Part shown: in pieces, positions 21,360 to 41,164 of the stretch
Layout: each line of letters starts with the position of its first letter
Numbering within the stretch: position 1 is the stretch's first letter
Origin: Pseudoxanthomonas spadix
GTDB taxonomy: Bacteria > Pseudomonadota > Gammaproteobacteria > Xanthomonadales > Xanthomonadaceae
NCBI RefSeq assembly: GCF_003703395.1
Contig: NZ_RDQN01000005.1
Location: 186,001 to 250,000, forward strand
Length of the DNA: 64,000 nucleotides
Direction: 5' to 3'
Notes under the pieces: generated by a model
What the model saw: only the letters and a program-made list of their open reading frames with translations
The model's database searches: none
What the model was told of the DNA's origin: nothing
Made by a program: the position numbers and the translations under genes

Positions 21360-21362
21360 GCA

Positions 21363-22244: not shown

Positions 22245-22277
22245 CCAAAGGCGATGGCACCGGTGAAGCCGTGGCGG

Positions 22278-22688: not shown

Positions 22689-22749
22689 GGGCTTTCCTCT
22701 TGGATGGGGAAGTCGCTGCCAGCCTAGCGCAGCGGCATGTGGAGGCAGG

Positions 22750-23457
22750 TCAAGCGACGATGGTGCCGCGCACCTGGGCCACGCCATCGAGGCTGCCGAC
22801 GAAGGTATCGCCTGGCTGCAACGCGGCCACGCCGGCCGGGGTGCCCATGAAGACCAGGTCGCCGGCCTTGAGCGCGTAGAGCCTGGACAGTTCGTGCAGG
22901 ATGTCCGGCACGTCCCAGATCATGTCGGTCAGCGGCGCGTGCTGGCGCACGCTGCCGTTGACGGTCAGGGTCACGGTCAACGACATCAGGTCGGCCACCT
23001 GCGCGGCGGGCACCAGTTCGCTGATCGGCGCCGAGTGGTCAAAACCCTTGGCCGTGTCCCAGGGCTGGCCGGCCTTTCTGGCCGCGTTCTGCAGGTCGCG
23101 ACGGGTCAGGTCCAGGCCGATGGCGTAGCCGTAGATCAGCGCGGCGGCGTCCTCCGCGGCCAGCACGCCGGGGGGTGCGTCGGCGCCCAGCGCAACCACC
23201 AGTTCCAGTTCGTGATGCAGGTCATTGGTGCCCGGCGGGTAGGGCACATCGGCATTGCCGGTGACGATCGCATCGGCCGGCTTGGCAAACAGGGTCGGCT
23301 CGCCGCGCTCGGCCTTCGAGGTCGCCACCTCCGAGCCCATCTCACGTGCGTGGTCGGCGTAATTGCGGCCCACGCAATAGATGCGGTGTACCGGAAAGGT
23401 GCCGCCACCACGGACGGGCACGCGCGCCTGCTGTGGCGCTGGAATCACATCGGACAT
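22750..23457 (-). CDS. fumarylacetoacetate hydrolase family protein
   Basis: A 235-residue FAH-superfamily enzyme, the compact single-domain type. [16 protein letters not shown] starts the fold; the metal-binding E-x-E is in [11 protein letters not shown], and [29 protein letters not shown] and [18 protein letters not shown] complete the active-site set. Such proteins act as acylpyruvases, oxaloacetate decarboxylases or isomerases; which one is not readable. ATG 23457 has AGGA at about 10 nt; ATG 23466 would overlap that site. Confidence 0.85.
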
Positions 23458-23513
23458 CGGGGACATTCCTGGCTGACAAGGGAATGTCAGAGTGTAATGG
23501 TCACCCACCCAAT

Positions 23514-23789
23514 TCAGTGCGAGAGCGGCAGCGCCTGCTTGCGCACGACCCGGTACTCACCTTCCACCACGTGCTGTTGCGCGGCGGGGCGCTGGCGCGG
23601 CCACAGCAGGCGATAGGCCAGGCCGGCGGCAAGCATCGTGGCACCGACAAACACGCCGAAGAACACCAGCACGCACAGCACGGCCAGACCCAGCAGGCCC
23701 ACGGCAATGCGCAGCAGCCGATGGCGGGGTTTGCGCGGGGCGAACACGGCGCGCAAGCGATGGCTGTCGAAGGAGAAGGTGCGGATCAT
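23514..23789 (-). CDS. small membrane protein, unknown function
   Basis: A 91-residue protein with an arginine-rich start (MIRTFSFDSHRLRAVFAPRKPRHRLLR), one long hydrophobic region (about 29-60, perhaps two helices with a glycine-containing turn) and a soluble tail ending RVVRKQALPLSH. I do not recognise a family. It lies 56 bp upstream of the FAH gene on the same strand and is divergent from the Rieske gene. The frame remains open far upstream, but only this part has protein-like composition. Confidence 0.6.
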   Translation of the reverse strand: MIRTFSFDSHRLRAVFAPRKPRHRLLRIAVGLLGLAVLCVLVFFGVFVGATMLAAGLAYRLLWPRQRPAAQQHVVEGEYRVVRKQALPLSH

Positions 23790-23870
23790 CGGGCTGGTGA
23801 CAGAATGTGTAGGAACCGTGACGCAGTATGGTCGCCTCTTTCGGCAGTGTGTGAAACCTTTGTTAATCCC

Positions 23871-24194
23871 ATGGATGTGATTGCCCTGGAGGCGCTGCCC
23901 GATGGCGTCCCGGCCGAGGCCGAGGCGATGATCGAGGGCAGCGCGCAATCGCTGCTGCTGGTGCGCCAGGGCCAGCAGGTGCGCGGCTGGCTCAACGTCT
24001 GCCCGCATGCGGGGCGGCGACTGGACTGGGCGCCGGGCAAGTTCCTGCTGACCAGGACCGGTGCGCTGGTCTGCGCCGCGCATGGCGCCACCTTCGAATT
24101 ACAGGATGGACAGTGCCTGTCCGGGCCATGCCGCGGGCAGTGCCTGCAGGCGGTGGCGCTGCAGGTGCGCGATGGCCAGGTGGTATTGGGGTAG
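23871..24194 (+). CDS. Rieske-type [2Fe-2S] protein
   Basis: A stand-alone Rieske protein of 107 residues. Both ligand pairs are visible: VCPHAGRRLDW (C-x-H) and VCAAHGATFELQDG (C-x2-H), followed by SGPCRGQCLQAVALQVRDGQVVLG. It lacks a membrane anchor or oxygenase domain, so it is probably a soluble electron carrier or a small assembly/oxidoreductase partner. ATG 23871 is the sensible start, though no Shine-Dalgarno is obvious. It is divergent from the small membrane protein gene. Confidence 0.8.
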   Translation: MDVIALEALPDGVPAEAEAMIEGSAQSLLLVRQGQQVRGWLNVCPHAGRRLDWAPGKFLLTRTGALVCAAHGATFELQDGQCLSGPCRGQCLQAVALQVRDGQVVLG

Positions 24195-27732: not shown

Positions 27733-27915
27733 ATGCACGCATCCCCTTGCCTGTCCAGCCTGGCTGCGGCGGTCGTCCTCGCCCTGGCGGGCGTTACCGC
27801 GCAGGTGCACGCCGAGCTGGTTTATTCGCAGACCGCGTTCTTCGGCGACAGCCTCACCGGCTCCGGCCATTTCCGCCCGGCCCTGGCGTTGCGTGCGGGG
27901 CAGGCCAGCGCATAG
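27733..27915 (+). pseudogene. N-terminal fragment of a GDSL autotransporter esterase
   Basis: ATG 27733 has GGAG 7 nt upstream and encodes a good signal peptide (MHASPCLSSLAAAVVLALAG, cut after VHA). Then ELVYSQTAFFGDSLTGSGHFRPAL matches the mature start and catalytic-serine GDSL block of EstA-type autotransporter esterases. The usual Asp after GDSLT is Gly. Homology stops after FRPAL, and the frame ends at 27915, 17 bp before tRNA-Gly. The rest of the roughly 600-residue gene is missing from the window, so this is a remnant left by rearrangement at the tRNA locus. Confidence 0.65.
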
Positions 27916-27932
27916 ACTGCCGCCTGTCCGAC

Positions 27933-28006
27933 GCGGGTGTAGCTCAATGGTAGAGCTGTAGCTTCCCAAGCTACTGACGAGGGTTCGATTCCCTTCACCC
28001 GCTCCA
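27933..28006 (+). tRNA. tRNA-Gly(CCC)
   Basis: A complete 74-nt cloverleaf with encoded CCA. The acceptor GCGGGTG (27933-27939) pairs with CACCCGC (27996-28002); the D arm is AGCTCAATGGTAGAGCT; the anticodon stem GTAGC/GCTAC holds loop TTCCCAA with anticodon CCC; the T arm is GAGGGTTCGATTCCCTTC. It borders the accessory island and looks like the integration site. Confidence 0.95.
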
Positions 28007-28020
28007 CCGCATCATTCTGC

Positions 28021-28149
28021 GGACTTGTGCAGAAGTCCAAGAGAGTCTGCAAGTCATTGCCACACAAGGACTTTTCCTCTCCTGAACGTTCTGCCGTGGT
28101 CCACTGCGATCCATCTACAGCCGGGACTTCTAAGTCCACAAACAAGTCC
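28021..28149. repeat. cluster of AAGTCC/GGACTT motifs next to tRNA-Gly (possible integrase arm sites)
   Basis: Within 129 bp just after the tRNA there are six exact copies of the hexamer in both orientations: GGACTT at 28021, 28068 and 28124, and AAGTCC at 28033, 28132 and 28144, plus AAGTCA at 28051. This density is far above chance. Its place between the tRNA 3' end and an integrase start suggests arm-type binding sites of the former tyrosine integrase (inference). Confidence 0.5.
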
Positions 28150-28245
28150 ATTTTTGCGGGCGCGGCTGATTTACGGATTGTGGATGGAGGGGCGAGGTCG
28201 ACGTGACCAGCATCTGGTTCCTGACTCATGTTCAGGAGCAAGAGC

Positions 28246-28518
28246 ATGGCACTGTCAGACCTGGCCGTTAGGCAGGCTGACCTGGATGGCCTGTCCCTGC
28301 CCGTGTCATCGCATGCCTGGCCCGCCGGCGCCCTGCAGGCATCGCCGCCGTGTTTCTGTGTAACCGATGCCTGGTCGGCTCGCGCGATCCGCCCGCCAAG
28401 CGTGCCGGCGTGCCCGTATTGGCCGGCCAGCCAATCGAAGTCGTCCGGATCGAGAAGGCGCGCATGGAGCAGTCCGATAGCGGCGCTGTGCAGGCGGTAC
28501 TCACGCTCCTTTCGGTAG
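28246..28518 (+). pseudogene. decayed tyrosine integrase N-terminus
   Basis: ATG 28246, with AGGAG upstream, encodes MALSDLAVRQA, the typical first residues of tRNA-targeting P4/ICE-type integrases. It then jumps to DLDGLSLPVS, the next conserved block (normally GDIDGLSLAVS), with about 8-10 residues lost between. After that the reading is unrelated low-complexity sequence to a stop at 28518. No arm-binding or catalytic domain follows. This marks integrative-element insertion at tRNA-Gly, with the integrase now destroyed. Confidence 0.65.
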
Positions 28519-28744
28519 CGGAAGCGGCAGGGCCTTCGCAGCGGGCCGTGCCCGACGCCAGAGGCCACCCGTCGGCTGCTCGGAGTGCGGATCGACTGCC
28601 ATTTCGTGCAGCAGGGCCGCGGAGGCAGTCAACGGTGCAATGCTGCCCGGATCGCGGGGCTGGCCGACATCCGTCGGCAGCCTGGTGTAAATGGCTAAAC
28701 TTGGTAATTGAAAGCCACGAAAGGCCAGATCGGATGGTTTCCGG
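28519..28744. other. 226-bp stretch between integrase remnant and HTH gene
   Basis: No gene is recognised. The right end should hold the promoter of the defence operon. AT-richer sequence (TAAATGGCTAAACTTGGTAA) at about 28688-28707 is the only promoter-like stretch, and I cannot assign -35 and -10 boxes with confidence. Confidence 0.35.
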
Positions 28745-28945
28745 ATGACTGAAGTCGAGAGCGAGATCCTCACGCTGGAGGAGGTCGCGGCCTACCTCAA
28801 AGCCGGGAAACGGACGGTCTATCGCCTTGCCCAGAAAGGCGAGATCCCGGCGTTCAAGCTTGGAGGTACCTGGCGCTTTCGCCGCTCGGAGCTGGATCGC
28901 TGGATCGCCGAAAGCATCAACAAGACGAAGCCGGAGGCCGAGTGA
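28745..28945 (+). CDS. excisionase/MerR-like helix-turn-helix protein
   Basis: A 66-residue DNA-binding protein of the HTH_17 (excisionase-type) family: ILTLEEVAAYLKAGKRTVYRLAQKGEIPAFKLGGTWRFRRSELDRWI spans the whole fold, with a short acidic/basic tail. It could be a relic excisionase or the regulator of the operon that starts 60 bp downstream on the same strand. The position favours control of the restriction-like operon (inference). Confidence 0.85.
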   Translation: MTEVESEILTLEEVAAYLKAGKRTVYRLAQKGEIPAFKLGGTWRFRRSELDRWIAESINKTKPEAE

Positions 28946-29005
28946 GCGCGAACCGAGCCAGCTGCCGAATCACGCTCCGCTAAGAGCTTAAGGGGAGGAT
29001 TGCCG

Positions 29006-31945
29006 TTGACCCAGCCGCTTCTGACGCCGCACCAGAGCCTGTATTACGCCTGGCTGCTGACCCGACGCGCGGCGGGCGACACGGTGGAGTCGCTGGCTTC
29101 TACCCTGGTCGATGCGCAGGTGGACCTGAACCCGCATCAGGTCGAGGCGGCGCTGTTCGCCTGCCGCAATCCCCTTTCGCGCGGCGTGATCCTGGCCGAC
29201 GAGGTCGGTCTGGGCAAGACCATCGAGGCCGGTTTGGTCATCGCGCAACGCTGGGCCGAACGGCGACGCAAGATCCTCATCATCGTGCCGGCGAACCTGC
29301 GCAAGCAGTGGCACCAGGAGTTGCAGGACAAGTTCGGCCTGCAAGGGCTGATCCTCGAAGCCAAAAGCTACAACGCGATCCGCAAGCAAGAGCGGCGCAG
29401 CCCGTTCCTGCTGGAGTCCGGCCCAATCATCTGTTCCTACCAGTTCGCGAAGGCCAAGGCCGACGACGTCAAGGGCATCGACTGGGACTTGGTCGTGCTC
29501 GACGAGGCGCATCGCCTGCGCAACGTCTACAAAACCAGCAACGTCATCGCCAAGACCCTCAAGGAGGCGCTGTCGCGCGTTCACTCCAAGGTGCTCCTGA
29601 CCGCGACGCCGTTGCAGAACTCATTGCTGGAACTCTATGGACTGGTCAGCTTCATCGATGACCGCGTGTTCGGCGACCTCGACAGCTTCCGCTCGCAGTT
29701 CACTGGCAGGGAGCAATCCGTCAGCAGTCTGCGTGACAGGCTGTCGCCCATCTGCAAGCGCACCCTGCGCAAACAGGTGCAGCCCTACGTTTCGTACACG
29801 GCGCGCAGGGCCATCGTCGAGGAGTTCACGCCATCGAGCGAAGAGCAGGAACTTTCCAGGCTCGTCGCCGATTACCTGCGCCGCCCCAACCTCAAGGCCC
29901 TGCCCGACGGGCAGCGGCAACTGATTTCACTGGTGCTGTGGAAGCTGCTGGCCTCCAGCACGCACGCAATCGCCGGCGCCTTGGAGACCATGGCCAAGCG
30001 TCTCCAGGGCGTGCTGGATGAGGCTGCCGTGGTTCCCGATCTGGCCGAAGAACTGGACGAGGACTACGAGTCGCTCGACGCCGATCTTGATGAAAGCGGC
30101 GCCGACGAACGGGAAGGCCAGGAGCCGGGCGCCAAGGCAGCGAGCCGCGCCGAGCGTGACGCCATCGCGCAGGAGATCGAGGAGCTGCGCCACTTCAAAA
30201 CGCTGGCAACCAACATCCGGGACAACGCCAAGGGCAAGGCGCTGCTCACCGCGCTGGATCGCGCGTTTGCAGAGCTGGATCGACTGGGCGCGCCCCGAAA
30301 GGCCATCATCTTCACTGAATCCAGGCGCACGCAGGAATACCTCCTCGGCTTGCTGGCCGACACGCCCTACGGCGACGGCATCGTGCTGTTCAACGGCACC
30401 AACAGCGACGCACGCGCGCAGGCCACCTACAAGGACTGGCTGAAACGCCACGCGGGCACCGACCGCATCACCGGCTCCAAGACCGCCGACACCCGCGCGG
30501 CGCTGGTCGAGCACTTCAAGGAACGCGGCAAGCTCATGATTGCCACCGAGGCCGGCGCCGAGGGCATCAACCTCCAGTTCTGCTCGCTGGTCATCAACTA
30601 CGACCTGCCGTGGAATCCGCAGCGCATCGAACAGCGCATCGGGCGCTGCCACCGCTACGGCCAGAAGTTCGACGTGGTGGTGGTCAACTTCGTCGACCGC
30701 AGCAATGAAGCGGACAAGCGCGTTTACGAACTGCTCGATCAGAAATTCCAACTTTTCGAGGGCGTGTTCGGGGCCAGCGACGAGGTGCTGGGCGCCATCG
30801 GTTCGGGTGTGGACTTCGAGCGGCGCATCGCCGACATCTACCAGAACTGCCGCGAGCCGGCGCAAATTCGCGCCAGCTTCGAGCAATTGCAGCTCGATCT
30901 GTCTGGCGAGATCAGCGAAGCGATGGTCAAGACGCGCCAACTCCTGCTGGAGAACTTCGACGAACAGGTGCAAGAAAAGCTGCGCGTGCGCGCCGAAGAC
31001 AGCCGCGCGGCACGCAGCAAGTACGAGCGCATGTTGATGGATTTGACCCGTGCGGAGCTGGCCGACTGCGCAAGCTTTGACGCGCATGGATTCGTGCTCC
31101 ATCACCTGCCCGGCGATTTGCTCCCCTCTCCCGCTTGCGGGAGAGGGGTCGGGGGAGAGGGCGAAGCCTTGACCAGGGTTTCGCTCGGCCGCTACGAACT
31201 ACCCCGGCGCAGCGGCGAGGCGCACCTGTACCGGCTCGGCCACCCGCTGGCGGAATGGGTCGTGCATCGGGCCAAAGCCCATGACCTGCCGAACGCCCGG
31301 CTGCTATTCGACTACGACGCCCACGGCACCCAGATCAGCACACTCAAAGCCTATCGCGGCCAGACCGGCTGGCTCACCCTGGCACTGCTGGAAGTCACCG
31401 CCCTGGGAAATCAGGAGCAGCACCTGTTGGTTGCAGCCAGCACCCGGAATGGTGTCGCGTTGGCGGAAGACGATCCCGAAAAGCTCCTGCGCCTGCCGGC
31501 GGCCATGGCCCCCTCGCCCCTTGGGGGAGAGGGCCGGGGTGAGGGGAAATCGACGCTGGAGCGAGACCTCGAAGCCCGCAAGGCCGCCCTGCTGCGCGAC
31601 ATCCACCAGCGCAGCCTCGGCTACTTCGAGCAGGAGGTGCAAAAGCTGGACGCTTGGGCGGACGACCTGAAGCTGGGCCTGGAGCAGGAGATCAAGGAAA
31701 GCGACCGCGAGATCAAGGAAGTGCGGCGCAGCGCCGCCATTTCGCCGACACTGGAAGAGAAGCTGTCATGGCAGAAGAAGCAGCGCGAGCTGGAAGGCAA
31801 GCGCAGCAGGCTGCGCCGCGAGCTGTTTGCCCGGCAGGATGAAGTCGAAGCGCAGCGCAACGATCTGATCACCCAGCTTGAGGCGCAGCTCCAGCAGCAG
31901 GTGGAAGAGCGCACGCTGTTCACGGTCGAATGGGAGCTGAAATGA
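29006..31945 (+). CDS. RapA-like SNF2/helicase-family ATPase
   Basis: A 979-residue superfamily 2 translocase. Motif I ILADEVGLGKTIEAGLVIAQ is at about 62-81, Ia IIVPANLRKQW, II LDEAHRLRN at about 165, III LLTATPLQNSL, and the C-terminal RecA lobe has KAIIFTESRRTQEYL, IATEAGAEGINLQFCSLVINYDLPWNP and QRIEQRIGRCHRYGQ. The last 300 residues are coiled-coil rich. TTG 29006 is preferred because GGGGAGG lies 7 nt upstream; TTG 29000 would be too close. Two palindromic repeats are inserted in frame (31123-31160 and 31509-31546), encoding LPSPACGRGVGGEGE and PSPLGGEGRGEGK. The stop overlaps the KTSC gene start. It is probably a DNA-translocating defence helicase. Confidence 0.85.
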   Translation: MTQPLLTPHQSLYYAWLLTRRAAGDTVESLASTLVDAQVDLNPHQVEAALFACRNPLSRGVILADEVGLGKTIEAGLVIAQRWAERRRKILIIVPANLRKQWHQELQDKFGLQGLILEAKSYNAIRKQERRSPFLLESGPIICSYQFAKAKADDVKGIDWDLVVLDEAHRLRNVYKTSNVIAKTLKEALSRVHSKVLLTATPLQNSLLELYGLVSFIDDRVFGDLDSFRSQFTGREQSVSSLRDRLSPICKRTLRKQVQPYVSYTARRAIVEEFTPSSEEQELSRLVADYLRRPNLKALPDGQRQLISLVLWKLLASSTHAIAGALETMAKRLQGVLDEAAVVPDLAEELDEDYESLDADLDESGADEREGQEPGAKAASRAERDAIAQEIEELRHFKTLATNIRDNAKGKALLTALDRAFAELDRLGAPRKAIIFTESRRTQEYLLGLLADTPYGDGIVLFNGTNSDARAQATYKDWLKRHAGTDRITGSKTADTRAALVEHFKERGKLMIATEAGAEGINLQFCSLVINYDLPWNPQRIEQRIGRCHRYGQKFDVVVVNFVDRSNEADKRVYELLDQKFQLFEGVFGASDEVLGAIGSGVDFERRIADIYQNCREPAQIRASFEQLQLDLSGEISEAMVKTRQLLLENFDEQVQEKLRVRAEDSRAARSKYERMLMDLTRAELADCASFDAHGFVLHHLPGDLLPSPACGRGVGGEGEALTRVSLGRYELPRRSGEAHLYRLGHPLAEWVVHRAKAHDLPNARLLFDYDAHGTQISTLKAYRGQTGWLTLALLEVTALGNQEQHLLVAASTRNGVALAEDDPEKLLRLPAAMAPSPLGGEGRGEGKSTLERDLEARKAALLRDIHQRSLGYFEQEVQKLDAWADDLKLGLEQEIKESDREIKEVRRSAAISPTLEEKLSWQKKQRELEGKRSRLRRELFARQDEVEAQRNDLITQLEAQLQQQVEERTLFTVEWELK
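31123..31160. repeat. palindromic mini-repeat inserted in frame in the SNF2 gene (copy 1)
   Basis: A perfect 12-bp stem CCCCTCTCCCGC / GCGGGAGAGGGG (31123-31148) with a 2-nt loop is followed by TCGGGGGAGAGG. It is translated as part of the helicase (PSPACGRGVGGEG) without breaking the frame. It shares sequence with the copies at 31509 and 36287. Confidence 0.8.
31509..31546. repeat. palindromic mini-repeat inserted in frame in the SNF2 gene (copy 2)
   Basis: CCCCCTCGCCCCTTGGGGGAG followed by AGGGCCGGGGTGAGGGG is a less perfect palindrome of the same family and orientation as copy 1. It encodes PSPLGGEGRGEG in the C-terminal part of the helicase. Confidence 0.7.
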
Positions 31946-32172
31946 CGCGGTATCGCAATCTCAGTGGGAATTCCAACGTCGTTACTTATGAAGTAACCGA
32001 GGATTCAATCCATGTGGTTTTCAAAAGTGGAAGGCATCGCAACTACCTTTATAACTCCGTTCGCCCCGGCCAAGTCGTTGTGGAGAGAATGAAAGCCCTG
32101 GCAGCGCAGGGCCGCGGTTTGAATTCCTACATTGTTTCAGTTGTAAAAGATCGATACGCACGCAAGTGGTGA
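31942..32172 (+). CDS. KTSC domain protein
   Basis: A 76-residue protein matching the small KTSC fold: SNVVTYEVTEDSIHVVFKSGRHRNYLYNSVRPGQVVVERMKALAAQGRGLNSYIVSVVKDRYARKW. The domain is often fused to or encoded beside DNA-processing enzymes; its biochemical role is unknown to me. ATG 31942 overlaps the helicase stop (ATGA) and has GGGAG upstream, so translation is coupled. The sequence is AT-richer than the helicase gene and marks the left edge of a lower-GC cassette. Confidence 0.75.
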   Translation: MTRYRNLSGNSNVVTYEVTEDSIHVVFKSGRHRNYLYNSVRPGQVVVERMKALAAQGRGLNSYIVSVVKDRYARKW

Positions 32173-32179
32173 GGTTCCG

Positions 32180-32356
32180 ATGACGTCGCTTTCCGAAGAA
32201 TTGGTTGAAGTAGTTGCTCCTTTGTTGATAGAGGACGGATTGTTTCTTACCAGAGATGTCGAGACGTACAAAGCGAAGCTTGCGACCGGCGCGATGAAGG
32301 CGGAAGACTGGCTCATGGCGGTGGAAAATGCATTGGCGAAGGAGGAAGCGCAATGA
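32180..32356 (+). CDS. 58-residue acidic helical protein, unknown
   Basis: ATG 32180 to TGA 32356 encodes 58 residues beginning MTSLSEELVEVVAPLLIEDG and ending LAKEEAQ. It is acidic and mostly helical, with no recognised family. It lies 7 bp after the KTSC stop, and its stop overlaps the ATG of the Rad50-like gene (ATGA), so it is almost certainly translated. The overlap on the right side and the spacing on the left argue that it is a real operon member, perhaps a partner subunit of the ATPase. Confidence 0.65.
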   Translation: MTSLSEELVEVVAPLLIEDGLFLTRDVETYKAKLATGAMKAEDWLMAVENALAKEEAQ

Positions 32357-34671
32357 CTGTTCCATCGCTCATTAGTTTGTCTATCGAGAATCTCCGAGGA
32401 TCAGTCACGCCCTTCACCTTGTCGTTCGAGAAGGGCAAAAAGCTCGTCATCATCTATGGCGAGAATGGCACGGGGAAGTCCACCGTGGCGGATGCTTTCG
32501 ACCTGCTTGGAAACGGTGAAGTAGGCTCTCTGGATACTCGCGGCTTAGGCGCCACGCGCAGGTACTGGCCGTCGATCGGAAAGAAGGCGATCGATGTCGA
32601 AGTAACTTTGGAAACGGGTTCCGGAAGCTGCAGCGTTTCCCTAGGCAAGAGCGACGTGGTGGTGAGCAATGAGGCACTGCGACCTCAGGTCGCCGTATTG
32701 CGGCGAACCCAGATTCTCCGGCTTATTGAGGCCAAGCCAGCTGATCGCTACAAGGAGATTGGCCGCTTCATCGATGTCGGTGGAGTAGAGGCGTCCGAAG
32801 GCACACTACGCAAGCTAATCCTCGACAAGCAGAACGAGTACAACACCGCGAGCACCCGCGTGTCGGAGAATAGGGCAGCGATCGATGGGTTCTGGAGGGA
32901 AGCGTCGAGTCCGGGCGCCAGCGCCATTGCTTGGGCTGAGCAGGAAGTGCAGAGGGACCAGACGCAGATCGATCTGCGCAAGGCCGTCGTCGATCGGTTG
33001 ATGGCGCTGTGGGATAAAGTCGTTTCACACCCACAGAAGGTGATTGACCTGGATAGCCAGCTCAAGAATGCCGAAGTTGCGCGTAACGCGGCACAGCAGG
33101 AACTCGCAGCGCTCGAAGGCACAATGGCCAGCGACTATCTGGAAGTGCTGGACATCTTGAAGGCGGCACAGGTGCACTTCAGGAACCACCCAGATCCGTC
33201 TGTCTGCCCTCTGTGTGAGAGCAGCGAAAACACCGAAAACTTGGTAGCTGAGGTTACCAGGCGTATCGAATCCCAAGACCAGCACAATAAGCTGGAGTCA
33301 GCAAAGCAAGCCGTCTTGGCAAAAACGAGGGCTGTAGAGCTTGCCCAACAGCGACTCGAAGACGCGAAGATGGCAGCAGCCGCTGACGTTGCTGCTTTCG
33401 AGGCGTACTGCTCCGACGGGGAAGTGCCGACGGACATCCCGGTGCCGGCGCTTCCGATGGTCGCGGATATTGCACAATGGGACAGCTGGATCGTTGCACA
33501 CCAGGACAAGCGAGGCCAGTGGGCGCTCACCGCTGAAGCCTGTGTCGCCGACAAGAAGTTTGTCGGCGCCTTACGTACCTCTCTTAGAATCCTAGAGGAA
33601 AACGAGCAGCGCGCCCAAGAGCTAGAGCTACTCGTTCCTCGCCTGAAGCAGGTACTCGAACTAATCGAACGCGAGCGCAAGAGTTTCACTGACGCTATCC
33701 TCAGCGCTATCTCCATCCGGGTAGGCGAGCTCTACGAGGCCATTCATCCAGGGGAAGGGCTGAATAAGATCGTCTTGGCGCTGGAGGAGGGAAAGCGAGC
33801 GTCACTGGAGATCGCAGCAGACTTCGGTGGCAACCCGGACTCTCCGCCGCAGGCGTACTTCAGTGACTCGCACCTCGACACGCTGGGTCTGTGCGTCTTC
33901 CTAGCACTTGCCGAGCGCGATACGCCAGAATACAAGCTGCTGGTGCTGGACGACGTGCTTGGCAGCGTGGATGAGCCGCATGTCGAACGCATTATCGAAA
34001 TGATCTACGACACAGTCGCCAAATTCCGCCACTGCATCGTGACGACGCACTACGGACCTTGGCGGCAAAAGTACCGCTGGGGGTGGCTGAAAAACGGGCA
34101 GTGCCAGTTCGTTGAGTTGTCACGCTGGTCCCTCCAACAAGGCATGTCCCACAGTCGAAACATCCCCGAAGTAGAGCGACTGCGCGCCATGCTGGGCGAA
34201 GCTGCGCCTGACCATCAGGCCATTTGCGCGAAGGCAGGCGTCATTCTGGAAGCTGTTCTGGAATTCCTAACCCTGCTCTACGAATGCAAAGTTCCCAGGA
34301 AGGCTTCCGGAACCTACGCACTGGGTGACCTCTTACCCGCCATCGACGACAAGCTGCGCAAGAGCCTGCGGGTTGAGCATCGGCATGAGGATGCTTCAGG
34401 CGCAGTCACCTATCACCCGCGCGCGCTGGAGTCTCATCTGGTTGAGCTTGCGCGGATCGCCCAGGTCCGGAACGTTACGGGTTGCCACTTCAACGCCTTG
34501 TCCTTTGACCTGCTAGATAGCGATGCCATGGCTTTCGGCGCGGAGGTGCTGGCTCTGGCGGATGCGCTAATTGATCACGAAACCGGCTGGCCCAGGAACG
34601 GCAAGTCCGGTAGCTATTGGGCCACGGCTGGCGAAACGCGCCGGTTGCACCCGCTGAAGAAGCCGAGTTGA
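32353..34671 (+). CDS. Rad50/SbcC-like SMC-type ATPase
   Basis: A 772-residue ABC/SMC-type ATPase. Walker A IIYGENGTGKSTVADAFDLL is at 34-53, a central coiled coil carries a zinc-hook-like CPLCESSENTENL at about 285-297, and the ABC-signature region is FSDSHLDTLGLCVFLAL. Walker B is KLLVLDDVLGSVDEPH at about 526-541, and VTTHYGPW follows as the switch histidine. About 170 residues beyond the ATPase (SRNIPEVERLRAMLGE, AGVILEAVLEFLTLLYE) form a helical C-terminal domain I cannot name. Codon use is visibly AT-richer than in the helicase or Res genes. It overlaps the 58-aa gene and precedes mod by 3 bp. It may sense or bridge DNA ends for the restriction module. Confidence 0.8.
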   Translation: MTVPSLISLSIENLRGSVTPFTLSFEKGKKLVIIYGENGTGKSTVADAFDLLGNGEVGSLDTRGLGATRRYWPSIGKKAIDVEVTLETGSGSCSVSLGKSDVVVSNEALRPQVAVLRRTQILRLIEAKPADRYKEIGRFIDVGGVEASEGTLRKLILDKQNEYNTASTRVSENRAAIDGFWREASSPGASAIAWAEQEVQRDQTQIDLRKAVVDRLMALWDKVVSHPQKVIDLDSQLKNAEVARNAAQQELAALEGTMASDYLEVLDILKAAQVHFRNHPDPSVCPLCESSENTENLVAEVTRRIESQDQHNKLESAKQAVLAKTRAVELAQQRLEDAKMAAAADVAAFEAYCSDGEVPTDIPVPALPMVADIAQWDSWIVAHQDKRGQWALTAEACVADKKFVGALRTSLRILEENEQRAQELELLVPRLKQVLELIERERKSFTDAILSAISIRVGELYEAIHPGEGLNKIVLALEEGKRASLEIAADFGGNPDSPPQAYFSDSHLDTLGLCVFLALAERDTPEYKLLVLDDVLGSVDEPHVERIIEMIYDTVAKFRHCIVTTHYGPWRQKYRWGWLKNGQCQFVELSRWSLQQGMSHSRNIPEVERLRAMLGEAAPDHQAICAKAGVILEAVLEFLTLLYECKVPRKASGTYALGDLLPAIDDKLRKSLRVEHRHEDASGAVTYHPRALESHLVELARIAQVRNVTGCHFNALSFDLLDSDAMAFGAEVLALADALIDHETGWPRNGKSGSYWATAGETRRLHPLKKPS

Positions 34672-34674
34672 AAG

Positions 34675-36378
34675 ATGAGTAACAAACAGAAACTCGAACT
34701 CACCTGGATCGGGAAGGAGAAGCGGCCCAAGCTGGAGCCGCGCATTCTGCTCGAAGACCGGGAGAAGTCATATCACGCCAAGCATCGGGTGACGGACAAC
34801 GACATCTTCGACAATCGGCTGATCTTTGGGGACAACCTGCTGGCGCTGAAGGCGCTGGAGCAGGAGTTCACCGGCAAGGTGAAGTGCATGTTCATCGATC
34901 CGCCCTACAACACCGGCAGCGCCTTCATGCATTACGACGACGGGCTGGAGCATTCGATCTGGCTGGGGCTGATGCGAGACCGGCTGGAGATCATCAAGCG
35001 TTTGCTGTCGGAGGATGGATCGCTTTGGATCACGATTGACGACAACGAAGGACACTACTTGAAAGTCCTATGCGACGAGGTCTTTGGGCGTTCAGCCTTC
35101 GTCACGTCGCTGGTGTGGGAGAACTTCTACGGCCGGAGTAACGCAGCGGCAATTTCTCCTGCACATAACTACGTCTTGCTGTACTCCCCGATGGGGCAAG
35201 ACTGGAAGCGTGTTCGAAATCTTCTGCCACGGGGAGAAGAGAGTGCCAGCAAGTACAAAAATCCTGACAATGATCCACGCGGGCCGTGGCGACTGGGTCC
35301 AATCTTCGCTGCAGGGGAGCGGCATGAAGGGCTCATGTACACCATAACAACGCCGTCCGGCCGCCAAGTAAGTCCCCCGAAAGGCAGCCACTGGCGGGTG
35401 TTGGAGGATCAATTCTGGAAGATGGTCAAAGAGGGGCGGATCGTATTTGGTGAAAAAGGCGATAACAACCCGGCAGTGAAGCTCTTCTTGCGAGAAGTAC
35501 AAGAAGGCTTAGTACCCAGGACCTGGTGGTCGCATACGGAAGTTGGTCACTCACAAGAGGCCAAGAGAGAGATCCAGGCGCTGTTCCCCAACGAGATTCC
35601 ATTTGACACGCCGAAGCCGGAGCGCTTGCTCAGTCACGTAATTACCATCGCATCCAACCCTGGCGACCTCGTCCTCGACTCCTTCGCCGGTTCCGGCACC
35701 ACCGGCGCGGTCGCCCACAAGATGGGGCGCCGCTGGATCATGGTGGAGCTGGGCGAGCATTGCCACACGCACATTATTCCGCGCCTGAAGAAGGTCATCG
35801 ACGGTGAGGACACGGGCGGCATCACGAAGGCCGTGGGTTGGCAGGGCGGCGGCGGTTTCCGCTACTGCCGCCTCGCGCCCACGCTGATCGTCCACGACCG
35901 CTGGGGCAATCCGGTGATCAACCCGGAGTACAACGCCGCGCAACTGGCCGAGGCGCTGGCCAAGCTGGAAGGCTTCAGCTACGCGCCTTCGGAAACCCGC
36001 TGGTGGCAGCACGGCCATTCCAGCGAGCGCGACTTCATCTACGTCACCACGCAGAACCTGGCCGCCGAGCAGTTGCAGGCCCTGTCCGACGAGGTCGGTT
36101 TCGAGCAGAGCCTGTTGGTGTGCTGCGCGGCCTTCCGTGGCGTCACGGCGGCCCGGGCGGCCGAGCGCTGGCCGAACCTGACGCTGAAGAAGATTCCGAA
36201 GATGGTGCTGGCCCGCTGCGAATGGGGCCACGACGACTACAGCCTGAACGTGGCCAATCTGCCGATGGCGGCGCCTGAAGAAGAAGCCCCCTCACCCCAA
36301 CCCTCTTCCGCGAGCGGGAGAGGGAGAAAGGCAGCACCCGTGCCCGACCTGTTTGGCGATGGGGAGTGCACGCCATGA
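34675..36378 (+). CDS. type III-like site-specific DNA (adenine-N6) methyltransferase, Mod
   Basis: A 567-residue beta-class amino-methyltransferase: the catalytic DPPY (VKCMFIDPPYNTGSAF, 71-84) precedes the SAM motif DSFAGSGTTGAVAHKMGRRW (about 335-354), with a target-recognition region between. That middle (about 35080-35640) is AT-richer and of different codon use, as expected for a swapped specificity domain. The C-terminal part includes WWQHGHSSERDFIYVTTQNL and a palindromic repeat insertion (PSPQPSSASGRGRKAA at about 36287-36324). The stop overlaps the DUF1016 start. It should methylate host DNA and give specificity to the Res protein. Confidence 0.88.
   Translation: MSNKQKLELTWIGKEKRPKLEPRILLEDREKSYHAKHRVTDNDIFDNRLIFGDNLLALKALEQEFTGKVKCMFIDPPYNTGSAFMHYDDGLEHSIWLGLMRDRLEIIKRLLSEDGSLWITIDDNEGHYLKVLCDEVFGRSAFVTSLVWENFYGRSNAAAISPAHNYVLLYSPMGQDWKRVRNLLPRGEESASKYKNPDNDPRGPWRLGPIFAAGERHEGLMYTITTPSGRQVSPPKGSHWRVLEDQFWKMVKEGRIVFGEKGDNNPAVKLFLREVQEGLVPRTWWSHTEVGHSQEAKREIQALFPNEIPFDTPKPERLLSHVITIASNPGDLVLDSFAGSGTTGAVAHKMGRRWIMVELGEHCHTHIIPRLKKVIDGEDTGGITKAVGWQGGGGFRYCRLAPTLIVHDRWGNPVINPEYNAAQLAEALAKLEGFSYAPSETRWWQHGHSSERDFIYVTTQNLAAEQLQALSDEVGFEQSLLVCCAAFRGVTAARAAERWPNLTLKKIPKMVLARCEWGHDDYSLNVANLPMAAPEEEAPSPQPSSASGRGRKAAPVPDLFGDGECTP
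36287..36324. repeat. palindromic mini-repeat inserted in frame in mod (copy 3, inverted)
   Basis: CCCCTCACCCCAACCCTCTT then CCGCGAGCGGGAGAGGG: the same repeat family as in the helicase gene, in the opposite orientation. It encodes PSPQPSSASGRGR near the C-terminus of Mod. Confidence 0.75.
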
Positions 36379-37457
36379 ACAAGAAGTTCACTGCAACCCC
36401 ACCCGAGTACGCGGACTGGTTGGCTGACATCAAGGCGCGGGTGGTGAGCGCTCGCCAGCGCGCGGCGCTGGCGGCCAATGCCGAACTGGTGATGCTGTAT
36501 TGGCAGATCGGCAATGAGATCCTGCAACGGCAGAGAACCGCAAATTGGGGTGACAAGGTGCTCGACCGGCTGGCCAGCGACCTGCGCGATGCCTTTCCGG
36601 AGATGAAGGGGTTTTCCCTCGCCAACCTGAAATTCATGCGCGCTTTAGCCCAGGCCTGGCCGGATGCCGCAATTGGGCAACAAGCTGTTAGCCAATTACC
36701 CTGGGGCCACAACGTGATTCTGCTGACCAAGCTGAAGGACCCGGCGCAGCGCCTGCAATACGCCGAACAGGCCCTCGCCGGCGGCTGGTCGCGCAGCACC
36801 CTGGAAGCCAATATCCGCGATCGACTGCTGGAGCGACACGGCAAGGCCGTCACCAATTTCAAGGCGCGGTTACCGGCGCCACAGTCGCAACTGGCGCACG
36901 ATACTCTCAAAGACCCCTATTTGTTCGACTTTCTTGGCCTTGGCAATAAAGCGCGCGAACGTGCCATCGAGACTGGCTTGGTCAGGCATGTCACCCGCTT
37001 TCTGCTGGAGCTGGGCAGTGGCTTTGCCTTCGTTGGCCGTCAGTACCGGCTGGAGGTGGAAGGCGACGAGTTCTTCATTGATTTGCTGTTCTATCACACG
37101 CGGCTGAAGTGCTATGTGGTGGTGGAGCTCAAGGCCGCCGAGTTCAAGCCCGAACACGCGGGTCAGCTGAACTTCTATCTCACAGCCGTGGACAGGCAGG
37201 TCAAGTCGCCGGACGACAAGCCCACGATCGGGCTGCTCTTGTGCAAGACCCGCAAACGCACAGTGGCCGAGTACGCGCTATCGGGTATTGACAAGCCCAT
37301 CGGCGTTGCCGAATACCGCTTGCTGCGCGATTTGCCGCAATCACTCACCACCAGCTTGCCGACGGTGGAGCAACTGGAAAGCGAATTGGGAACGGTTGAT
37401 AGCAAAAACGGCGACAAACCGAAACGGTTGCGCAGGAAAAAGGGAGATGCAGAATGA
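36375..37457 (+). CDS. DUF1016 (YhcG-like) PD-(D/E)XK nuclease family protein
   Basis: A 360-residue protein with the two-part DUF1016 architecture: an N-terminal helical domain (YADWLADIKARVVSARQRAALAANAELVMLYWQIGNEI, GFSLANLKFMRALAQAWP, LPWGHNVILLTKLKD) and a C-terminal nuclease fold. The catalytic set is visible in EGDEFFIDLLFYHTRLKCYVVVELKAAEFKPEHAGQLNFYL (D...E-x-K). ATG 36375 overlaps the mod stop (ATGA) and its own stop overlaps the next gene, so it is locked between mod and res. It is either a second nuclease of the system or a factor joining Mod and Res. Confidence 0.88.
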   Translation: MNKKFTATPPEYADWLADIKARVVSARQRAALAANAELVMLYWQIGNEILQRQRTANWGDKVLDRLASDLRDAFPEMKGFSLANLKFMRALAQAWPDAAIGQQAVSQLPWGHNVILLTKLKDPAQRLQYAEQALAGGWSRSTLEANIRDRLLERHGKAVTNFKARLPAPQSQLAHDTLKDPYLFDFLGLGNKARERAIETGLVRHVTRFLLELGSGFAFVGRQYRLEVEGDEFFIDLLFYHTRLKCYVVVELKAAEFKPEHAGQLNFYLTAVDRQVKSPDDKPTIGLLLCKTRKRTVAEYALSGIDKPIGVAEYRLLRDLPQSLTTSLPTVEQLESELGTVDSKNGDKPKRLRRKKGDAE

Positions 37458-40210
37458 GCGCCCGTGTTCAGAACCATGTGGCGGGACGGCTTTCGCTGCG
37501 GCCACCACAGGCTGAGTCGCTGGCAAAGCTCAAGCAGGCGCTGGATGCCGCGCCCGATCTGCTTGGCCACGAGCAGGACGTTGCGGCCATTCTGTCCACG
37601 CTCAAGGCGGAATTCCCCACCCTGGAGGACTTCGAGCGCGAGTTTCCGTCCCTGTGCTTCGCGCTGGCCACCGGCGTGGGCAAGACGCGGTTGATGGGGG
37701 CGTTCATCGCCTACCTGCATCTGGCGCACGGCATCCACAACTTCTTCGTCCTGGCGCCGAATCTCACGATCTACAACAAGCTCATCACGGACTTCACGCG
37801 CAACACGGCCAAGTACGTGTTCAAGGGCATCGCCGAGTTCGCGCAGCAGCCACCGCTGATCATCACCGGCGACAACTACGACCAGACCGGCGCGGCGGTG
37901 GACGAGCAGTCGATGGGCTTTGCCCACGACGTGCGCATCAACATCTTCAACATCTCCAAGATCAACTCGGAGGTGCGCGGCGGCAAGGAGCCCCGCATCA
38001 AGCGCATGCGCGAGGTGCTGGGCGACAGCTACTTCAACCATCTGGCCAATCTGACCGACCTGGTGCTGCTGATGGACGAGTCGCACCGCTACCGGGCCAG
38101 CGCCGGCGTGCGCGCCATCAACGAACTCAAGCCGCTGTTCGGCCTGGAACTGACGGCGACGCCCTTCGTGGAATCCCCCCGTGGTCCTGTGCCGTTCAAA
38201 AACGTGGTGATGGACTACCCGCTGGCACGGGCGATGGAGGACGGCTTCGTCAAGGAGCCGGCCGTGGTCACCCAGCGCAACTTCAAGGCCGGCGATCACA
38301 CGCCGGAGGAAGTGGAGAAGACCAAGCTGGAAGACGGCGTGCGCCTGCACGAGACCACCAAGGTCGAACTGCTCACCTACGCCCGCGAGAACGGCGTCAA
38401 GCCGGTCAAGCCCTTCATGCTCGTCATCGCGCGCGATACCACCCATGCGGCCCAGTTGAAGGCATTGATCGAGTCGGAAAAATTCTACGAAGGCCGCTAT
38501 GCGAACAAGGTGATCCAAGTCGATTCCAGCCGCACCGGCGCGGAGGAAGAGGAGATGATCTCGCGCCTGCTGGCCGTGGAGAGTGTGGACGAGCCGACCG
38601 AGATCGTGATTCACGTCAACATGCTCAAGGAAGGCTGGGACGTGACCAACCTCTACACGATCGTGCCGCTGCGCGCGGCGAATGCGCGCACGCTGATCGA
38701 GCAGTCCATCGGGCGCGGTCTGCGTCTGCCCTATGGCAAGCGCACCGGCGTGGCGGCCGTGGATCGGCTGAACATCGTGGCCCACGACCGCTTTCAGGAG
38801 ATCATCGACGAGGCCAACCGTAGCGATTCGCCGATCCGCCTGCAGCAGGTCGTGCTTGATACACCCAGCGCAGCCGACAGGAAGGTCAGCGTGCAGGTCG
38901 AATCGGTCGCTGCGGCGCGTCTCGGGCTGACGGATGCGCCCGTTGTGCAGACGAGCGCATCAGGTGCCGATAGTGGGCCGCCCACGACCGCCGAATTGCC
39001 CGCACCGAGTTTCTCCACCGCAGCGGAGAAGCAGGCCGCCCGCATGGTCATGGAGGTCATCGGAAAGTACGAGGTCAGGCGCGATGTTGCGCCCACACGT
39101 AGCGCGTTGCTGAAGCCGGAGGTGCAGCAGGAGATCCTGGCGGAGGTGGCGGAGCGCATGAGACCTTTGCAGGGCTCGCTGCTGGCCGGCGTGGACGAAT
39201 CGGCGCCTGCGCTCGATCTGCTGGCCGTGGTGGCCAAGACCACGGAAATCGTGGTGCAGCAAGCCATCGACATTCCGCGTATCGCCGTGGTGCCGACCGG
39301 CGAGGTCACGACGGGCTTTCGCCCATTTACTCTGGACGTGAGCCAGCTTCACCTTCAGCCGGGCGAACGCGAAATCGTCGGCCAGATGCTGCGCACCCAC
39401 GAGCAATTCACGCTGGCCGCCGAACTCGGCCTGAAGGAGCAGCGCCCGGAGGACTACATCGTCCACGCGCTGGTGGATTTCGACGACATCGACTATTTCA
39501 CCCATGCCGACCTGCTCTATGAGCTCGCGGGCCAGATGGTTCGGCACCTGCGCAGCTATCTGTCCGAGGATGCGGCCCTCGGCGTGCTGGATCGCGATCG
39601 CCGCCTGATCGCGCGGGAAATCCACGCGCAGATGATGGCCCACTTCTGGGAGGAGGCAACCGAGTACGAGGTGCAGGTCAGCCGCGGTTTCACCGCACTC
39701 AAGCCCTGCAACTACACCGCCATGGCAGGTCAGACGGCCCACCACTTCCGGGAGACCGTGCTTGATCCCAGCCGCATCAAGCAGATGCTCTTCGGCGGCT
39801 TCGCGCGTTGCCTGTATCCGCTGCAGAAGTTCGACTCGGATACCGAGCGGCGCTTCGCCATCATCCTGGAGCGTGACGCTTTGAGGTGGCTCAAGCCTGC
39901 GAAGGGGCAGTTCCAGATTTACTACAAGCTCGGCGCCGAGCAGCCGGAGTACATCCCCGACTTCGTGGCCGAGACGGACACGACCATCTTCATGGTGGAG
40001 ACCAAGGCACGGGTGGACGTCGACACTCAGGAGGTTCAGGCCAAGGCAGCTGCCGCCATGCGTTGGTGCAGGCACGCTTCCGATCACGCGGCAAACGTCG
40101 GCACCAAGCGCTGGAAGTACCTGCTGGTGCCGCATGACGAAGTCAGCGAGTCCAAACGGCTTGCCGATTACCTGCGCTTTGAGGTCAAGGGGTCGTTGAG
40201 CGCACCTTGA
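37454..40210 (+). CDS. type III restriction enzyme Res-like helicase-nuclease
   Basis: A 918-residue protein. The helicase motor has motif I FALATGVGKTRLMGAFI (69-85), II LLMDESHRYR (about 205), LELTATPF (motif III), and the second lobe IVIHVNMLKEGWDVTNLYTIVPLR and LIEQSIGRGLRLP (motif VI). The C-terminal PD-(D/E)XK endonuclease is YIPDFVAETDTTIFMVETKA (about 832-851). Length and order match Res subunits of type III systems. It overlaps the DUF1016 stop by 4 bp and is the last gene of the operon. No truncation is seen. Confidence 0.9.
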   Translation: MSARVQNHVAGRLSLRPPQAESLAKLKQALDAAPDLLGHEQDVAAILSTLKAEFPTLEDFEREFPSLCFALATGVGKTRLMGAFIAYLHLAHGIHNFFVLAPNLTIYNKLITDFTRNTAKYVFKGIAEFAQQPPLIITGDNYDQTGAAVDEQSMGFAHDVRINIFNISKINSEVRGGKEPRIKRMREVLGDSYFNHLANLTDLVLLMDESHRYRASAGVRAINELKPLFGLELTATPFVESPRGPVPFKNVVMDYPLARAMEDGFVKEPAVVTQRNFKAGDHTPEEVEKTKLEDGVRLHETTKVELLTYARENGVKPVKPFMLVIARDTTHAAQLKALIESEKFYEGRYANKVIQVDSSRTGAEEEEMISRLLAVESVDEPTEIVIHVNMLKEGWDVTNLYTIVPLRAANARTLIEQSIGRGLRLPYGKRTGVAAVDRLNIVAHDRFQEIIDEANRSDSPIRLQQVVLDTPSAADRKVSVQVESVAAARLGLTDAPVVQTSASGADSGPPTTAELPAPSFSTAAEKQAARMVMEVIGKYEVRRDVAPTRSALLKPEVQQEILAEVAERMRPLQGSLLAGVDESAPALDLLAVVAKTTEIVVQQAIDIPRIAVVPTGEVTTGFRPFTLDVSQLHLQPGEREIVGQMLRTHEQFTLAAELGLKEQRPEDYIVHALVDFDDIDYFTHADLLYELAGQMVRHLRSYLSEDAALGVLDRDRRLIAREIHAQMMAHFWEEATEYEVQVSRGFTALKPCNYTAMAGQTAHHFRETVLDPSRIKQMLFGGFARCLYPLQKFDSDTERRFAIILERDALRWLKPAKGQFQIYYKLGAEQPEYIPDFVAETDTTIFMVETKARVDVDTQEVQAKAAAAMRWCRHASDHAANVGTKRWKYLLVPHDEVSESKRLADYLRFEVKGSLSAP

Positions 40211-40372
40211 TCGACTTCGGTGCAGGCATCCAGGCGGCGGAGGATCGCCGCTTCAGGCGCATGATGAACCGGCGGGCCTGACCCGGCGCAAGGCTGCAGC
40301 TACAGGTGATTCTTGAACGCTCGCCGCCGCGATAGATGACCCCGACTCGCACCTCGCCCCGACGCGGCGGGC
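40211..40372. other. 162-bp gap between res and parE, no gene seen
   Basis: This convergent intergenic stretch shows no gene. It also has no copy of the tRNA-Gly 3' end that would mark the right boundary of an integrated element. Confidence 0.5.
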
Positions 40373-40687
40373 TCATGAACCGAAATCGTACCCGAAGCGG
40401 TCGATCCGGTGCATCCGCTCGTGCAGGATGGTCACGATGCCGATGTCGCCATTGGAGAGCCGGCGCCAGTAGACGAAGTGCCGTTGGTAGCGGAAGAAGT
40501 AGCCTTCGATGCCGAACTCGGCGGGAATGGGCCTGGACGATGTCCGGTGTGTCTGGATGCCGTCGAAGGCCTCGAACAGGCCGGTGATGTAGCGGTCGGC
40601 GTGTTCGGTGCCCCAGCGATCGCGCGTGTAGCGGTAGATCTGGTCGAGCCGCCAGGACGCCGCCTCCTGGACCAGGACCTTGGCCAC
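40373..40687 (-). CDS. parE: ParE/RelE-family toxin
   Basis: A 104-residue toxin of the ParE fold: AKVLVQEAASWRLDQIYRYTRDRWGTEHADRYITGLFEAF gives the two N-terminal helices, FFRYQRHFVYWRRLSNGDIGIVTILHERMHRIDRF the sheet and C-terminal strand. ParE proteins poison DNA gyrase; RelE-like RNases have the same fold, so the target is inferred from closer resemblance to ParE. It starts 4 bp after the antitoxin gene. Confidence 0.85.
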   Translation of the reverse strand: MAKVLVQEAASWRLDQIYRYTRDRWGTEHADRYITGLFEAFDGIQTHRTSSRPIPAEFGIEGYFFRYQRHFVYWRRLSNGDIGIVTILHERMHRIDRFGYDFGS

Positions 40688-40691
40688 GCAG

Positions 40692-40952
40692 TCAGCCTCG
40701 GTTGCGCGCGATCACGTCGGCGGCGGTCAGGGGACGGTACGAGGCCTCCGGGGAGGCAAAGGCATGGGCCAGCTCGGCCTTCAGCCGGTCGAAGGCTTCC
40801 TGCTCCTTGCGTTGCTTGTCGCGGCGGATCAGGTCGCGCATGTACTCGCTGACGTTCTCGTAGTCGCCGTGCTCGCCCACGTTGGCGGCGACGAAATCGC
40901 TGAGCGGCCCGCTGAGGCGAACCGTCATGGTCGTGGTCGTTGTCCGGGACAT
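40692..40952 (-). CDS. parD: ParD-like ribbon-helix-helix antitoxin
   Basis: An 86-residue antitoxin: [41 protein letters not shown] is the RHH DNA-binding part and [40 protein letters not shown] the disordered toxin-binding tail. It precedes the toxin in the leftward pair, as usual. It should repress its own promoter through the inverted repeat upstream. Confidence 0.85.
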
Positions 40953-40975
40953 GGCTGGCTCCTGTTGCCGTTATC

Positions 40976-41002
40976 GTATTCAATATATTCAAAAAGGAAT
41001 AC
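40976..41002 (-). promoter_or_regulatory. parDE operator/promoter
   Basis: Just upstream of parD lies AT-rich DNA with GTATTC (40976-40981) and its inverse GAATAC (40997-41002), plus an extra internal TATTC (40986-40990). Multiple short inverted half-sites in an AT-rich promoter are typical of RHH antitoxin autoregulation. The AT content stands out sharply from the surroundings. Confidence 0.55.
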
Positions 41003-41164
41003 GGAGACAAGCATCCGGCAGCCTCTTCTGTGGCCGGTGCGCGCCGATGTCAGGCGAAAAAGGAGCGCGCGCCGCGCTGCGATCCGGGCGCCCTGGCCTG
41101 CAGCGGAACGGTGAACGGCGCGTGTCATGCTAGGCGCCGTGGTTCTTCCTGCAAAAGCGGCGGC

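Follow-up and report, generated by a model that had tools for sequence, protein, structure and literature searches.

The question raised by this locus is which of its genes belong together. Eight genes are packed on one strand at positions 28745–40210 of the window, the 64,000-nucleotide stretch of Pseudoxanthomonas spadix DNA that was analysed; they include a gene for an SNF2-type motor and the genes mod and res of a type III-like restriction-modification (R-M) system. We propose that the locus is an R-M chassis with two cargo slots, slot A between SNF2 and Mod and slot B between Mod and Res, and we give this reading a probability of about 70%. Sequence comparison shows that SNF2, Mod and Res form a conserved frame, that the contents of both slots are exchanged, that the recognition region of Mod is exchanged separately, and that some of the cargo is related to named anti-phage systems.

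The genes of the operon

The genes, in order, are as follows.

28745–28945, + strand: small HTH_17/excisionase-type DNA-binding protein, putative regulator (family models)
29000–31945, + strand: SNF2/RapA-type translocase, DrmD-like, backbone gene 1 (PADLOC and NCBIfam models)
31942–32172, + strand: KTSC-like small protein, optional slot A cargo (open reading frame, resemblance by eye)
32180–32356, + strand: p58, slot A cargo, small partner of the ABC ATPase (position in relatives)
32353–34671, + strand: ABC/SMC-type ATPase with a CPLC zinc-hook motif and a C-terminal domain carrying RN-x4-H (HEPN-like), slot A cargo
34675–36378, + strand: Mod, beta-class type III-like DNA adenine methylase, backbone gene 2 (family models, EcoP15I Mod match)
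36375–37457, + strand: DUF1016/YhcG PD-(D/E)XK protein (PDC-S02), slot B cargo (family models)
37454–40210, + strand: Res, SF2 helicase with a C-terminal PD-(D/E)XK motif, backbone gene 3 (family models, EcoP15I Res match)

All eight open reading frames (ORFs) are present on the + strand where a preliminary description of this DNA had placed them. The four ATGA overlaps that it had pointed out were also found, between the SNF2 and KTSC-like genes (31942–31945), p58 and the ABC gene (32353–32356), mod and the DUF1016 gene (36375–36378), and the DUF1016 gene and res (37454–37457), as was a 3-bp gap between the ABC gene and mod (34672–34674). The KTSC-like and DUF1016 genes probably start at 31942 and 36375, instead of in longer frames, and the start codon of SNF2 is TTG at 29000.

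Family models back the assignments HTH_17, SNF2 (with DrmD as the best match), AAA_23, N6_N4 methylase of type III, YhcG/DUF1016 and ResIII. The pairing of Mod and Res as type III proteins, also claimed beforehand, agrees with matches of Mod to PDLC03636 (6.7e-215) and EcoP15I Mod (1.2e-34), and of Res to PDLC03648 (1.5e-211) and, in its helicase part only, EcoP15I Res (3.1e-6). The helix-turn-helix (HTH) protein scored 81.8 bits against a cut-off of 80 with NCBIfam NF047737 (MAD1), a match to a short general HTH fold. DUF1016 had no match in the PDB at 0.01. Two earlier names call for a qualification. The resemblance behind the name KTSC is visible by eye, but Pfam gave no match for this protein even at an E-value of 10, nor for p58 or the C-terminal domain of the window's ABC ATPase. 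The Rad50/SbcC-like ATPase carries an extra C-terminal domain, of a kind that Rad50 does not have.

The composition of the window locus separates the two classes of gene. GC content at third codon positions (GC3) was 0.79 for HTH, 0.84 for SNF2, 0.83 and 0.85 for the two ends of mod and 0.85 for res; it was 0.52 for the KTSC-like gene, 0.59 for p58, 0.69 for the ABC gene, 0.64 for the variable recognition region of Mod (residues about 126–320) and 0.74 for DUF1016. In this one locus, and on a plain comparison of values, GC3 sets the backbone apart from the cargo.

SNF2, Mod and Res form a recurrent backbone

A scan with Mod returned at least 587 relatives, the best 80 of which were retained, giving 81 loci together with the window (the duplicate L001 was excluded). 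SNF2 lay upstream of Mod in 65 of the 81 and Res downstream in 77; both were present in 64, the window among them, so that the gene order is no chance arrangement. The motifs DPPY and FxGxG occur in all 80 full-length Mods, and the SF2 helicase and PD-(D/E)XK motifs in 68/68 Res proteins.

Selection by Mod was avoided in a search with SNF2 only, which found the motor in 16/274 genomes of the class and 19/398 of the phylum; the two draws overlap in some genomes, and the sole SNF2 genome common to them is that of the window. From the class sample, 12 of the 15 foreign SNF2 places were taken (G077, G163 and G179 were left out), and a same-strand methylase followed SNF2 in 10 of these, the other two (L090, L091) running into the contig end. 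In the phylum sample a methylase followed in 16 of 19 foreign places, and L136, L139 and L146 reach the contig end. Pooled, this amounts to 26 of 26 resolvable places, some with distant methylases (Mod profile E-values down to 7e-15). Res or another SF2 helicase came next in 22 of the 23 places that could be judged, three of these helicases being recognised solely from their Walker A and DExH motifs. The SNF2 translocase, which the preliminary description had singled out as an extra partner of Mod and Res, is therefore a real and recurrent one. L135 is apparently from the same genome as L028.

The backbone is also found on plasmids. Window-type SNF2 occurred in 46 plasmid records, 28 of them typed conjugative, and all six loci that were opened (Deinococcus, Cupriavidus, Rhizobium, Klebsiella, Salmonella and Aeromonas) showed SNF2, a methylase and a DEAD/DEAH helicase in this order with varied genes between. 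In five of these six, the annotation places an HTH gene immediately upstream; a close homologue of the window's HTH lies within 600 bp upstream in 13/52 full-length SNF2 loci, and the idea of HTH as a universal first gene was discarded. As a counter-sample, five genomes with more distant Mods (43–53% identity; G097, G112, G154, G162, G169) were looked up among the SNF2 matches, and none was there. One locus, L088, has the order SNF2, GmrSD-like, methylase (E 1e-41), RhuM and Res (E 4e-16); with parts as distant as these, the chassis is wider than the type III subfamily to which the window belongs.

These counts bear on one alternative, that of a plain type III R-M system in a defence island, with SNF2, the ATPase and DUF1016 as neighbours that have no functional link to it. 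Mod and Res do score as type III proteins related to EcoP15I, DUF1016 and similar proteins are widespread defence candidates (PDC-S02), and the p58–ABC pair is also found standing alone. Against this, SNF2 has a methylase beside it in 26 of 26 resolvable places from samples selected without the methylase, the identities of SNF2 and Res track each other (0.90; see below), and the cargo sits inside the operon with 4-bp overlaps. We consider this alternative improbable.

Cargo and recognition region are exchanged

In the 64 Mod-selected loci with the full backbone, slot A measured at least 900 bp in 62 and slot B at least 600 bp in 35. Cargo ORFs were chosen by a greedy longest-ORF script, and a few small ones are possibly spurious; proteins of at least 140 aa fell into 38 clusters in slot A and 6 in slot B, with 3 common to both. 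Slot preference is strong: AIPR was found in slots A and B of 22 and 0 loci, respectively, RhuM of 0 and 16, and DUF1016 of 2 and 17. When 20 cargo proteins were scanned with PADLOC, 14 passed the cut-offs applied (Ppl, SIR2, HerA, HEC-06, IetA, IetS, pAgo_II, PDC-S06 twice, PDC-S05 (RhuM), HEC-01A, Dsr2, PtuA and PD-T4-4_A), and AIPR, DUF2130, a GHKL-like protein of L015, PLD, a zeta-like protein and DUF6119 did not. By these models the cargo includes proteins related to the named systems IetAS, SIR2–HerA, DSR2, Septu, PD-T4-4, Ppl and pAgo. Small gene pairs in slot B of L050 and slot A of L138 carry an RN-x-x-x-H-G motif and look like HepT/MNT toxin–antitoxin pairs by eye.

Close relatives show how the slots change. 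Among 90 pairs of loci with SNF2 at least 80% identical, 24 have a slot A cluster in common and 66 differ. In 62 of these 66, the DNA ceases to be similar no more than 30 bp from the SNF2 stop codon. Of the 64 pairs with a match at the Mod end, 57 have it beginning no more than 30 bp from the Mod start; inside slot A, none of the 66 gave a match. In one pair, L015 and L026, identity is 96.3% across the 6.2 kb that end at the SNF2 stop, after which the cargo differs, and the two diverge again in the middle of mod; their SNF2 and Res are 96–97% identical, and cargo and recognition region differ. Because homology ends there, the breakpoints at gene borders fit recombination through the flanking genes, and we infer that homologous recombination by this route is the probable way in which new cargo enters the slots.

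Spearman correlations of pairwise identities were 0.90 between SNF2 and Res, 0.83 between SNF2 and the conserved parts of Mod, and −0.16 (49 loci) between SNF2 and the recognition region; by this measure the recognition region varies independently of SNF2. Correlations of SNF2 with cargo were 0.28 for AIPR, 0.10 for Ppl, 0.28 for DUF1016 and −0.07 for RhuM. L026 and L041 have a recognition region in common (77–97% in windows) and not their cargo, and cargo and recognition region therefore exchange separately. On the SNF2 tree, slot A labels changed 31 times (17 labels, 52 tips), a parsimony count with the first cargo cluster as label and no shuffled control that we take as supportive only.

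The preliminary description leaned towards a fixed complex, with the products of all eight genes working jointly and the accessory genes locked between Mod and Res. Tight packing and gene overlaps speak for such a complex. Of the 81 loci, however, 5 have the ABC pair in slot A and 17 have DUF1016 in slot B, and relatives with SNF2 82–84% identical hold IetAS, AIPR–paraMORC, SIR2–HerA or Ppl in place of the window's cargo. The ATPase, DUF1016 and the KTSC-like gene are thus exchangeable cargo whose places are taken by other defence genes elsewhere, and do not regularly accompany Mod and Res, as SNF2 does. The differing cargo of close relatives largely refutes the fixed complex, which we regard as very improbable.

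The p58–ABC pair

The ABC ATPase of slot A has a Walker A motif (GENGTGKST), a CPLC hook and a Walker B motif. The hook, C285-P-L-C288, is invariant in 5/5 proteins, and CPxC is found in 11/11 aligned ABC ATPases, outgroup included. In its C-terminal domain, RN-x4-H occupies one alignment column in 10/10 relatives and is absent there in the distant L101. In the window's protein its R and H are residues R706 and H712. The RNase motif of HEPN domains is R-x4-6-H, in an all-helical domain, and RN-x4-H falls within this pattern. A small protein of the p58 type, with a shared DW, is encoded directly upstream of the ABC gene in 12/12 loci, three of them stand-alone; a KTSC-like gene precedes the ABC gene in 3/10. 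Backbone-blind samples at stricter cut-offs placed ABC relatives at the slot A position in G263, G057 (where SNF2 is off the contig), G317 and G345, and a weak relative in G021 (25%) elsewhere. When viral contigs were scanned with the ABC alignment, 15 places matched, over short stretches only and mostly at the Walker A end, and no phage-borne relative came to light.

Taken together, the pair is mobile and probably self-sufficient, and p58 with the ABC ATPase looks like an undescribed two-gene defence candidate. HEPN–ABC fusions have been named PrrC/RloC (PMC3710099). In L108, a SNF2 backbone carried by a Rhizobium plasmid has next to it (21169–23891, − strand) the gene for an AAA ATPase of 832 aa, with a gene for a 74-aa protein ahead of it, possibly another small-protein/ABC pair.

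The operon lies in an insertion at a variable site

Two further features mark the borders of the insertion.

27933–28006, + strand: tRNA-Gly (CCC), left border of the insertion
40373–40952, − strand: two small genes, ParE- and ParD-like by eye from their sequence starts, right end of the insertion just past res

In 7 of 12 congeners the downstream flank follows tRNA-Gly after 47–100 bp; in the window it is 13.1 kb away (28006 to 41117). Of the remaining congeners, one has about 1 kb at this point, in two the interval is about 13 kb and contains none of the eight genes, and two were unresolved. This comparison makes the operon an insertion at a variable site. The other DNA of about 13 kb at this tRNA-Gly site in L112 and L113 (G277, G282) contains very large ORFs (1239–1854 aa) that, judged by eye, resemble surface or secreted proteins. 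Integration by tRNA duplication was rejected, since the window does not repeat the tRNA's terminal 14 or more bases anywhere else. Between tRNA-Gly and the HTH gene, a remnant matching the TraI_2 relaxase (28326–28550, − strand, 2.9e-7) lies within ORF 27825–28568, which makes an integrative conjugative element a possible origin of the insertion.

How the chassis might work

Several observations weigh against an R-M chassis with filled slots whose cargo is tied to restriction. In the phylum sample, 8 of the 16 methylase-bearing places have no same-strand cargo ORF of at least 80 aa between SNF2 and Mod, as compared with 2 of 64 loci with slot A below 900 bp in the Mod-selected set; a filled slot is therefore common and not required. 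SNF2 was undetected in 16 of the 81 Mod relatives, with less than 10 kb of upstream DNA in 10 and 10 kb in 6. L096, in the finished-looking genome G136, keeps Mod and Res together with cargo of the GmrSD-like, AAA and subtilase kinds and has no SNF2 upstream; this backbone may have lost its motor. In L087, SNF2 is followed by a methylase and no Res was recognised. The p58–ABC pair stands alone in 3/3 inspected Bacteroidota plasmids and, being mobile and probably self-sufficient, argues against an obligate tie to restriction. Within the pair, it is the RN-x4-H motif that makes the C-terminal domain HEPN-like. Any coupling of cargo to restriction is putative.

With these points in mind, the chassis might work as follows. 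Judging from the protein families, Mod would mark self by methylating a site that its exchangeable recognition region specifies, and Res with Mod would cut unmarked DNA in the manner of EcoP15I. The DrmD-related SNF2 motor may move on invading DNA or strip it, aiding recognition or blocking replication. Cargo would be co-expressed as a second line for when restriction fails, in the window p58 and the ABC ATPase together with the DUF1016 nuclease. The ATPase, with a zinc hook as in Rad50 and RloC, would meet abnormal DNA or a stalled restriction complex, upon which its HEPN-like domain would cut RNA; p58 may be its regulator or silencer. Such a trigger would be modelled on the reported activation of RloC by DNA breaks (PMC3874168) and on the release of PrrC once its R-M partner is blocked (PMC2610378).

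In its most specific form, which we regard as possible rather than probable, our proposal is that SNF2–Mod–Res is a dedicated carrier and trigger: motor and restriction enzyme would sense that restriction is blocked or evaded and switch on the module in slot A or B, and recombination would re-arm the locus, bringing in a new effector and, in separate events, another recognition sequence, the effector of the window being a new two-gene p58–ABC/HEPN system. If so, the backbone points to defence genes, since anything between SNF2 and Mod becomes a candidate, with named systems in the same slot as positive controls. Natural pairs such as L015 and L026 would suit a test of whether embedded modules act alone or depend on the host operon, and p58 with ABC-HEPN would be a testable new defence pair. 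The presence of the backbone on conjugative enterobacterial plasmids would bear on plasmid exclusion and spread.

Comparison with known systems

The locus resembles type III systems such as EcoP15I in having a beta-class Mod, with a variable recognition region at its centre, followed by Res (SF2 helicase, PD-(D/E)XK). Type III enzymes cleave between two unmethylated sites that lie head-to-head, and methylate adenine at N6 on one strand. Unlike them, the family of the window has a constant upstream SNF2 motor and one or two cargo slots within the operon.

The combination of a DrmD-like SNF2 motor and a methylase for DNA adenine is reminiscent of DISARM class 1, and the locus could be a variant that retained DrmD in position and exchanged the other components for new ones. 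DrmD models are indeed the best matches of SNF2 (PADLOC DrmD, 4.7e-199; NCBIfam DrmD_b, 667 bits), but the latter score is below the DrmD_b cut-off of 950 bits. Furthermore, DrmB and DrmC were matched by none of the eight proteins and DrmA by the SNF2 motor only (for SNF2 and Mod, among the best 25 families), so that membership of DISARM was rejected and a variant of it seems unlikely. The earlier statement that the set does not match DISARM or BREX agrees with the models tested. The same applies to MADS, which was rejected as other mad genes gave only weak matches, mad3 (2.4e-10) and mad8 (1.6e-4), both to the ABC ATPase.

Among the cases of guilt by embedding (Payne et al.) is Hma with its embedded candidates (HEC), likewise a helicase–methylase system that houses other defence genes, and several cargo proteins match HEC and PDC models. 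Hma consists of the HmaA helicase, an m5C methylase and the HmaC ATPase (PMC8565338), in contrast to the SNF2, N6/N4 adenine-type methylase and Res of the window. DarTG2 lies within a type I R-M locus whose regulator is RptR (PMC12255303); there, too, a regulator comes first and an unrelated defence module lies between the genes of the R-M operon. That locus differs from the window in its type I R-M system, single module and other regulator family.

RloC-type ABC ATPases, as described with PrrC in PMC2610378, combine a zinc hook of the CxxC type with a predicted RNase domain at the C terminus and are sometimes R-M-linked, and the window's ABC ATPase shares the hook and a putative RNase domain in this position. 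The ACNase triad R-x3-E-x36-52-H was found at a shared column in 0/10 proteins (one stray match), with RN-x4-H in 10/10 instead, and RloC membership was rejected; unlike RloC and PrrC, the window's ATPase has an obligate small partner, p58. Its best PADLOC match is LmuB of Lamassu (4.9e-18), an SMC-type ATPase with a hook. This match is weak, the LmuA effector gene is absent, and in the window the putative effector is fused to the ABC ATPase.

That AIPR and GHKL proteins are embedded in R-M operons has been noted since at least 2008 (PMC2292703), HEPN, RhuM and others have been reported in such positions (PMC3710099), and R-M-embedded genes have been used for the discovery of defence systems (PMC12255303, PMC12988326). 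Literature searches, most of them aimed at this architecture, turned up no description of the two-slot SNF2–Mod–Res chassis or of the p58–ABC pair, with subscription journals and bioRxiv outside the scope. As far as these sources reach, the embedding of defence genes in R-M operons is known, and the SNF2–Mod–Res chassis and the p58–ABC pair are apparently new.

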